Shown here: piece by piece, positions 15,514 through 42,510 of the stretch
How positions within the stretch are numbered: the stretch's first letter is position 1
Layout: each line of letters starts with the position of its first letter
Source of the DNA: Acidimicrobiia bacterium
Lineage (GTDB): Bacteria; Actinomycetota; Acidimicrobiia; Acidimicrobiales; CATQHL01
DNA: 64,000 nt
Direction of reading: 5' to 3'
Assembly (NCBI GenBank): GCA_009840735.1
Contig: VXNF01000014.1
Span: forward strand, 1-64,000
Notes under the pieces: generated by a model
Databases searched by the model: none
The model's input: the letters and a program-made list of their open reading frames with translations, nothing else
What the model was told of the DNA's origin: nothing
Position numbers and translations under genes: made by a program

Positions 15514-15881
15514 GGCGCCGGAGGGGTGGCCGGGTCGAGGTAGTTGACCGTCGCCGGCGGCACCATGCCGAGACGGTCGCGCGCTTCGCTGGCGAGGCGA
15601 GCCGGTGACAGCAGTTCGGCGCGCCGCAAGCGCAGCTCGCGATCCAGGCTGACCGCCTCGTCGATCTGTCGGTCGAGTTGGTCGATGCGCCCCTGCGCCT
15701 GCGTGACCACGGCCTGGAGGAGGCCCACCGCGAACAGTCCCCCGAGAAGCACGAGCACCACCCGCAACCCGACGCGGCGAAGTTGGCCCGGCCTGGCACG
15801 TCGGGCCGCCACGACTTCGAGCCGGGAGGGCGCCTTGACCTGCGGGTCAGCCGGCTGGGGGGTTCGGAGCGGCCGGTTCAT
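15510..15881 (-). CDS. ftsL: FtsL/DivIC-like septum formation protein
   Basis: Short single-TM protein followed by coiled-coil (IDQLDRQIDEAVSLDRELRLRRAELLSPARLASEARDRLGMVPP) between rsmH and ftsI. Confidence 0.82.
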   Translation of the reverse strand: MNRPLRTPQPADPQVKAPSRLEVVAARRARPGQLRRVGLRVVLVLLGGLFAVGLLQAVVTQAQGRIDQLDRQIDEAVSLDRELRLRRAELLSPARLASEARDRLGMVPPATVNYLDPATPPAP

Positions 15882-16822
15882 GCTGCTGGCAGCGCCAGCT
15901 TCTCGAAGGCGCGCAGGCGAGCGCTGGCGGCGCGAGGGTTGCGCGAGGTCTCAGCCGGACCGGGCCGGGCCGCCCCGCGGCTCAGCAGTCGGATGCGGCC
16001 AACGGCGCCGCAGACACAGGGGAGGCGCGGCGGACAGGCGCAGCCGCCGACCGCCGCGGCGACCAGCGTGTCCTTCACGAGACGATCCTCCCCGGAGTGG
16101 TAGCTCAGCACCACTCCCCGCCCGGCGGGCGCTAGGCGGTCGATGGCCTGCGTGAGAGCCGGAGGAATCTGGGCGAGCTCGTCGTTGACTGCGATCCGCA
16201 GCGCCTGGAAGCTGCGCTTGGCGGGGTGTCCGCGCCGGCGGTGCCGCGCCGGGACGGCGGCGCGCACGACCTCAGCCAATTCGAGGGTGTCGCCCAGCGG
16301 GCGGCGGGCCACGATGGCCTGGGCGATCCGGCGGGAATGCGGCTCGTCGCCGAAGTCCGACAGCAGGCTCGCGAGGCGCTCGGCGGGCCACTCGTTGACG
16401 ATCGCCGCGGCGCTGGGGGCGGCGGGATCCATGCGCATGTCGATCGGGCCGGCGGTTCGATAGCTGAACCCCCGATCGGGGTCGTCGATTTGCATCGAGC
16501 TGACTCCGAGGTCGAACAGCACGCCAGCGAGCTCCGCAATACCCAGGTCGGCGAGGACCGCGCTCAGGTCTACGAAGCGGCACTGTCGCATCCGGACGCG
16601 GCTCGGGAGCCGGCGAGCGGCGGCGGCCAGTGCCGACGGGTCCCGATCCAGCCCGACGAAGCTCAGATCGGGACGACGCTCGAGCAGGGCGGCGGTGTGA
16701 CCGCCCGCGCCCAGCGTGGCGTCGAGGAGCACTCCCGCCGGGATCGGCGCCAGAGCTTCGGTGACTTCGCGAGCCATGACGGGGGTGTGCCCGGCGATTC
16801 CGGGTCCCTCATGGACGGCCAC
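15878..16822 (-). CDS. rsmH: 16S rRNA (cytosine(1402)-N(4))-methyltransferase
   Basis: GHTPVMAREVTEALAPIPAGVLLDATLGAGGHTAALLER...FDLGVSSMQIDDPDRGFSYRTAGPIDMRMDP...RRGHPAKRSFQALRIAVNDEL...SYHSGEDRLVK. Confidence 0.97.
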   Translation of the reverse strand: MAVHEGPGIAGHTPVMAREVTEALAPIPAGVLLDATLGAGGHTAALLERRPDLSFVGLDRDPSALAAAARRLPSRVRMRQCRFVDLSAVLADLGIAELAGVLFDLGVSSMQIDDPDRGFSYRTAGPIDMRMDPAAPSAAAIVNEWPAERLASLLSDFGDEPHSRRIAQAIVARRPLGDTLELAEVVRAAVPARHRRRGHPAKRSFQALRIAVNDELAQIPPALTQAIDRLAPAGRGVVLSYHSGEDRLVKDTLVAAAVGGCACPPRLPCVCGAVGRIRLLSRGAARPGPAETSRNPRAASARLRAFEKLALPAA

Positions 16823-16843
16823 GGCGCCGTTGCGCCCGCGGTC

Positions 16844-16967
16844 CGCCGTTCAGCAATCCCCCGGCTGCCAGGACCTCGCGGCGATTTGGTTCGTCGCAAG
16901 GAAGGTGGCAAGTGGGCGGAGTAGGGACTGGCTGTCCTCCTGTCAGCCGGGGGATTGCTGAACGGCG
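16844..16967. repeat. Long inverted repeat (about 30-bp arms, 1 mismatch) in the mraZ-rsmH intergenic region
   Basis: + strand 16844-16867 cgccgttcagcaatcccccggctg is the exact reverse complement of 16944-16967 cagccgggggattgctgaacggcg; the match continues after one mismatch to arms 16844-16873 and 16938-16967. Confidence 0.9.
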
Positions 16968-16987
16968 AACGAACGCGAGCCGATCGT

Positions 16988-17458
16988 TCACAGCCAACTG
17001 CTCTCAGACCAGGAACCGAGGCCACCCTCGTCGGCGTAGGCGCCGGCACCGCCGACTGTCTCCAGCCAGACCTCGCTGTTCCACAATTCGATTCGCTCGC
17101 CCACGCCGGCCACGAACACCCGCGCCTCAGCCCCGGCGGCGTCGATGCGCAGCACCTCGCGCAGCGGCTCGGGCACCACGATGCGCCCCTGCGCGTCCCC
17201 CCGGACGGGGTAGCCGTTGCCGGAGAACCAGCGCAGCAGATTCTGGCCCGCGGCCCCGGAGCGCACCTCTCCTTCGAGGCGCCGGTAGGCGGCGTCGAAA
17301 CTCTTCTGCCGCCACAGCCCCAAGCAGGGACTGCCGGGGACACGACCGAGGATGCAGCGATCCTCGGTGTCCAGTCCGCCGCGAAACTCCGGCGGGAGCG
17401 AGACGCGCCACTTGGCGTCGATGATCCGCTCGTGACTGCCGGAGAATGTTCTGTCCAT
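16988..17458 (-). CDS. mraZ: Transcriptional regulator / division protein MraZ
   Basis: MDRTFSGSHERIIDAKWRVSLPPEFRGGL...DAQGRIVVPEPLREVLRID...VGERIELWNSEVWLE: two SpoVT/AbrB-like MraZ repeats. Confidence 0.95.
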   Translation of the reverse strand: MDRTFSGSHERIIDAKWRVSLPPEFRGGLDTEDRCILGRVPGSPCLGLWRQKSFDAAYRRLEGEVRSGAAGQNLLRWFSGNGYPVRGDAQGRIVVPEPLREVLRIDAAGAEARVFVAGVGERIELWNSEVWLETVGGAGAYADEGGLGSWSESSWL

Positions 17459-17591
17459 CTCGTGTGGTGCCTCGCGCCGCAGCGCCGGGGGTTGGGAACG
17501 GTCCGGGCGCTCCTCGCGGGCGGCGCCTCTCGTGGCGCTCCCGTCCGGGCGCTCGTTAGCGGGTGCAGTATAGGGACTGCTCCCCGTCTTT

Positions 17592-17638
17592 CACCACAAT
17601 AACCCACTTTGCCCCACCACGCAAAGCAATCGCCCCAC
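17592..17638 (-). promoter_or_regulatory. Candidate MraZ operator (10-nt phased GTGGG-type repeats) upstream of mraZ
   Basis: Minus strand reads GTGGG-GCAAA-GTGGG-TTATT-GTGGT (17617 to 17593), plus another GTGGG around 17638-17634; a TATACT box lies downstream at 17572-17567. Confidence 0.7.
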
Positions 17639-38573: not shown

Positions 38574-38943
<370 letters not shown>

Positions 38944-38945
<2 letters not shown>

Positions 38946-40754: not shown

Positions 40755-40829
40755 TGGGCACTGGCGGACTCGAACCGCCGACCTCTTCCTTGTAAGGGAA
40801 GCGCTCTGAACCGACTGAGCTAAGCGCCC
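40755..40829 (-). tRNA. tRNA-Val (anticodon TAC)
   Basis: Minus strand GGGCGCTTAGCTCAGTCGGTTCAGAGCGCTTCCCTTACAAGGAAGAGGTCGGCGGTTCGAGTCCGCCAGTGCCC: cloverleaf with loop CTTACAA, T-loop GGTTCGAGTCC. Confidence 0.96.
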
Positions 40830-42285: not shown

Positions 42286-42358
42286 TGGGCTCGGTGGGGA
42301 TCGAACCCACGACCGAACGATTATGAGTCGTCTGCTCTGACCACTGAGCTACGAGCCC
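42286..42358 (-). tRNA. tRNA with CAT anticodon (elongator Met, or Ile2 if lysidine-modified)
   Basis: Minus strand GGGCTCGTAGCTCAGTGGTCAGAGCAGACGACTCATAATCGTTCGGTCGTGGGTTCGATCCCCACCGAGCCC; loop CTCATAA. Confidence 0.93.
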
Positions 42359-42437: not shown

Positions 42438-42510
42438 CTCCGGGGGTGGGGCTCGAACCCACGACAAACGGCTTAACAGGCCGGCGCTCTGCCAACTGAG
42501 CTACCCCGGA
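42438..42510 (-). tRNA. tRNA-Asn (anticodon GTT)
   Basis: Minus strand TCCGGGGTAGCTCAGTTGGCAGAGCGCCGGCCTGTTAAGCCGTTTGTCGTGGGTTCGAGCCCCACCCCCGGA-G; loop CTGTTAA. Confidence 0.96.

Follow-up and report, generated by a model that had tools for sequence, protein, structure and literature searches.

The closest described system to the RNA reported here is the mraW RNA motif (RF01746), listed for Actinomycetales (PMC2864571). A transcription start of C. glutamicum falls within this motif (PMC3890552), and in C. diphtheriae the motif is found upstream of the transcription start (PMC5784534). Like the RNA described below, RF01746 is a long hairpin, imperfectly paired and C-rich in its apical loop, located upstream of rsmH (mraW) in actinobacteria; the two differ, however, in their loop cores, with ACUUCCCC in RF01746 and CUCCGCCC in the RNA of Acidimicrobiia. 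A first-pass annotation of the window (the whole 64-kb stretch of DNA analyzed) had mentioned this motif in connection with the hairpin between mraZ and rsmH, but without claiming a match. Applied at its gathering threshold, the RF01746 model finds no match in the window, in 20 relative loci or in 100 genomes from the order, and the same search recovers the C. glutamicum control and matches in 9 of 150 genomes of the phylum. Our refined covariance model (R2) reaches no more than 17 bits on the RF01746 matches; the two RNAs may still be homologous. As both model and loop mismatch, the Acidimicrobiia RNA should not be filed under RF01746. An Rfam scan of the element at gathering and relaxed thresholds yields only chance matches (mir-602, HOXA11-AS1_5). 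As a separate matter, the RF01746 loop GUACUUCCCC (L125-L133) is closer to the complement of 16S GGGGAGUAC (helix 27) than to any sense stretch, possibly by chance.

Two broader classes of RNA also merit comparison. Autoregulatory ribosomal protein leaders imitate the rRNA site of the protein that they control, and RNase III processing stems occur inside operons. With the former, the RNA at hand shares a structured leader beside a gene for an rRNA-acting protein, a translation start that in part of the copies lies inside the structure, and a possible likeness to the rRNA target; it differs in that the product is a methyltransferase, the likeness is limited to ~10 nt and the binding of RsmH to the leader is only putative. 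With the latter it shares a long and almost perfect helix lying between genes of one operon, but a plain RNase III site would have neither a conserved loop nor side hairpins nor a start codon within the helix.

The inverted repeat between mraZ and rsmH

A repeat search of the window places at this junction two arms of 33 nt each, 94% complementary and separated by a 64-nt spacer, with 24 contiguous pairs (Table 1). The annotation's reading, arms of 30 bp with a single mismatch and 24 perfect pairs, is correct if slightly short. On the minus strand, the gap between the two genes reads GUUCGCCGUUCAGCAAUCCCCCGGCUGACAGGA ... UCCUGGCAGCCGGGGGAUUGCUGAACGGCGGAC. Folding of the 130-nt element RNA gives -85 kcal/mol (z = -11.5), and of the element with its flanks (191 nt) -110.9 kcal/mol (z = -7.3), such that the stable mRNA structure predicted ahead of rsmH is borne out far beyond chance; the imperfect stem noted within the loop is likewise real, and corresponds to the hairpin that we designate P3. 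No second arm match occurs in the 64-kb window at up to three mismatches (0 expected), and the whole element is single-copy in the 2.72-Mb assembly, where the next best match, the element's own arms aside, is a 33-nt fragment with E = 0.05.

Table 1. Features of the window discussed in the text, with the basis for each
Feature	Coordinates	Strand	Basis
P1 closing helix, 5' strand	16938..16970	-	Inverted repeat; covarying helix in 72 sequences
P1 closing helix, 3' strand	16841..16873	-	Inverted repeat; covarying helix
P3 hairpin (nested stem CCUUGCG/CGCGAGG)	16874..16901	-	Folds, pair counts
Conserved P2 loop block CCCUACUCCGCCCACUU	16910..16926	-	Nearly invariant in 72 sequences; 16916 aligns with 16S C1402
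mraZ, upstream gene	16988..17458	-	ORF, stop at 16988; conserved in 37 of 41 relatives
rsmH (mraW), downstream gene	15878..16822	-	ORF, GTG start at 16822; genome G002 has ATG in that position, in support
Possible 15-codon upstream ORF, TTG start (ATG in G008)	16809..16856	-	Frame and length the same in eight genus members and G008
RNase P RNA, class A, bacterial	38579-38944	+	Rfam scan (RF00010, 214 bits)
tRNA genes	40755-40829, 42286-42358, 42438-42510		

A structured RNA of the Acidimicrobiia

Sequence comparison shows this hairpin to be a copy of a structured RNA, not catalogued before, that occupies the mraZ-rsmH junction of most Acidimicrobiia. The element is present at the same junction in all eight genomes of the window's genus, the other seven copies being 86-93% identical. 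Under strict filters, a covariance model (R1) built from these eight sequences and that of G008, a genome of another genus in the same family, has matches in 117 of 299 order genomes. When order loci are instead reached through mraZ, one per family, 19 of 21 carry the element; one of the remaining two is cut off before rsmH and the other truly lacks it. Across the class, 209 of the 247 genomes sampled, representing 109 of 125 genera, have an R2 match to the element. An exact search of named genomes for the loop block returned 96 stretches, nearly all labeled Acidimicrobiia or Acidimicrobiales, and R2 matches 77 of the 80 that were fetched. Outside the class there are no convincing copies; the matches in the phylum sample are marginal (E 0.002-0.005) and, not resembling the element, are taken as chance. 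The RNA is absent from Rfam 15 and did not appear in literature searches of open-licence papers. What emerges is a class-wide, strongly covarying RNA, new to Rfam 15, ahead of a widely conserved ribosome-modification gene, and this suggests that actinobacterial rsmH leader RNAs come in at least two forms, RF01746 and the one described here.

The consensus structure rests on an alignment (A2) of 72 elements from the order-level R1 matches. Most copies form a three-way junction, in which a closing helix, P1, of 27 pairs plus one encloses two hairpins. P2 is closed by GAUGG-AAG/CUU-N-CCAUC and displays a nearly invariant loop, CCCUACUCCGCCC(G/A)CUU, with a core that few other parts of the RNA rival in conservation. 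P3 is built around GGGGAGAMAUCCCG. In other orders of the class, P3 is replaced in some members by just a short stem, and the loop core persists.

Covariation in relatives was one of the checks proposed in the first-pass annotation, and it speaks clearly for the structure. Compensatory changes on both sides are seen in 38 of the 43 pairs across the 72 sequences, and 91.2% of cells are paired. The covariation score of 0.461 compares with 0.211 in shuffles, which ignore relatedness, and at most 0.161 in slides, which keep relatedness and lean towards the consensus-derived structure; both controls are thus exceeded by a wide margin. A separate comparison with G008 agrees, the outer stem there being largely different in sequence with its pairing kept. 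The annotation had also named a lack of covariation coupled with dozens of copies as the outcome that would argue against an rsmH-specific RNA; we find instead abundant covariation and a single copy.

The gene context is just as constant. Over 139 distinct elements, rsmH lies directly downstream in 134 and mraZ directly upstream in 132, and a few of the exceptions are at contig ends. Taken with the conservation and covariation, this fixed context lends strong support to the idea, already voiced in the annotation, of a cis-regulatory RNA before rsmH.

P1 and the start region of rsmH

GRGGG-CUGCNG-AUG-AGC is a common sequence of the P1 3' strand, which in many relatives contains a Shine-Dalgarno-like stretch together with the rsmH start codon. 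An in-frame AUG or GUG start of rsmH falls within this strand in 43 of the 134 copies with rsmH mapped, the window not among them, and in 30 of these 43 it is the sole possible start, none occurring later before the conserved N-terminus. In 34 other copies the P1 start opens a separate short ORF, and for 20 of these ORFs the stop is no more than 20 nt from an rsmH start, in many cases as an ATGA overlap. A pattern search finds no AUG or GUG behind a purine stretch in P1 in the other 57, the window's copy included, which counts against the reading given below. Given these placements, the ribosome-binding region of rsmH, or possibly that of a coupled ORF, appears to be built into P1 in the lineages concerned. 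Genome G010, which has no element, features an ordinary GAGGAGAGAGAG-ATG after the mraZ stop.

We consider it probable that P1 is the closing helix of a structured rsmH leader RNA that controls translation by hiding the rsmH start region. The structure and its context can be read from the sequences; the translational control is what we infer from the buried start region. P1, when closed, would hide the start region of rsmH, or that of a short upstream ORF coupled to rsmH, and translation of rsmH from the mraZ-rsmH transcript would then be low. A trans-acting factor recognizing the P2 loop, or cleavage of P1 by RNase III, would set the amount of RsmH. Because P1 is so stable, it is difficult to see how a ligand could simply open it, and cleavage or transcripts starting inside the element may be needed; short rsmH transcripts escaping the hairpin are conceivable in Acidimicrobiia, since transcription of Corynebacterium mraW starts inside or downstream of its motif. 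At the element, too, the division and cell-wall cluster may break up into parts under separate control.

The copy in the window is a derived variant. Its P1 is without an AUG, the aligned stretch reading UGA, and in its genus rsmH starts 18 nt beyond the P1 arm, with P2 weak and the lower half of that hairpin lost. Because of this displaced start and weak P2, control in the window genus might operate through the adjacent stem or through the putative 15-codon upstream ORF, which starts in the P1 3' strand and overlaps the rsmH start. In one genus member, G003 (L062 1501-1635), the loop reads CUACUCCCAUCACUU and the otherwise nearly invariant CCGCCC has been lost.

Likeness to the C1402 region and other readings of the hairpin

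The target of RsmH in 16S rRNA is C1402 (PMC5053481). The loop profile, UACUCCGCCCGC, was compared at every position with complete 16S genes from four order genomes, on both strands. Its best match, by a clear margin, is at E. coli positions 1395-1406, around C1402, and 14 further loops outside the profile lead to the same site. The likeness hints at possible feedback by RsmH itself. Substrate mimicry is a natural reading with RsmH encoded immediately downstream: the P2 loop ACUCCGCCCG would imitate 16S 1396-1405 (ACACCGCCCG), which holds C1402, and free RsmH bound to the loop would keep P1, and with it the rsmH start, closed, perhaps methylating the leader in the process. The constant placement of the element beside rsmH is consistent with such self-repression, which would tie the supply of RsmH to the number of unmethylated small subunits.

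We nevertheless regard self-repression by mimicry as a tentative possibility, rather doubtful on balance. Shuffled loops reach an equally good match in 0.7% of trials when columns are shuffled and in 1.8% when letters are, in a comparison chosen after the loop had been seen, and some loop windows have rival matches when longer stretches with 23S and flanking sequence are included. Position 1398 differs from the loop in nearly all copies, G003 lacks the CCGCCC, and the loop of RF01746 does not match the C1402 site. METTL15, the human homolog, makes its contacts with the RNA backbone and shows no sequence preference in RNA binding (PMC10828496), which also counts against recognition of a mimic. 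Through this leader one can ask directly whether an rRNA methyltransferase is open to regulation by a decoy of the rRNA site that it modifies.

Position 1405 of 16S rRNA, normally G, is A (CACCGCCCAUC) in just two of the 299 order genomes, G008 (L145) and G133 (L146). In the family of G008 the rsmH leader loop mostly has the same A. Coevolution of loop column 74 with 16S G1405 is suggestive at most, as the loops of several other families also have A.

An unlikely alternative to a translational leader is that P1 serves mainly as an RNase III processing site separating the mraZ and rsmH mRNAs, with cleavage destroying the mraZ end and perhaps freeing the rsmH start region. The retention in all lineages of at least 27 nearly perfect base pairs, even as their sequence drifts, is what such a site would call for, but RNase III would need no invariant loop, no P2 or P3 and no start codon in the helix. 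It is the processing half of the annotation's "attenuator/RNA processing site" that stands, as a candidate. The other half, in which the hairpin would end mraZ transcripts before the rsmH cluster, is very improbable: a strong GC-rich hairpin does lie between the two genes, but it is followed by CGCGGGCGCAACGG with no U-tract, a terminator scan is negative at the site, and the P1 3' strand is already RsmH-coding in many copies. An intrinsic terminator is rejected on the same grounds. Finally, a MITE-like insertion, as the annotation had also entertained, or a REP-like mobile repeat, would suit a near-perfect intergenic inverted repeat of ~130 bp, but has next to no chance of being correct for an element found class-wide once per genome, between mraZ and rsmH, with compensatory changes in its stems.

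Two DNA-level candidates within the loop fare poorly as well. The CCCUAYWCC stretch resembles the mraZ -10 region (TCCCTATACT), but the last T of TANNNT is missing from it, and covariation in the RNA would not be explained by an internal promoter. A MraZ box was considered and rejected on the plus strand, where AAGTGGG appears only if column 74 is A and has no 10-bp partner.

Turning to sites upstream of mraZ, a second R2 match in L030 (1126-1218, genome G032) is a very strong GC-rich hairpin without the loop, and seems unrelated. In the window, the minus strand at 17567-17620 shows GTGGGGCAAAGTGGGTTATTGTGG boxes and, after them, a hexamer resembling a -10 element, TATACT. The arrangement is shared by the genus and G008, and probably represents MraZ's own operator and promoter.
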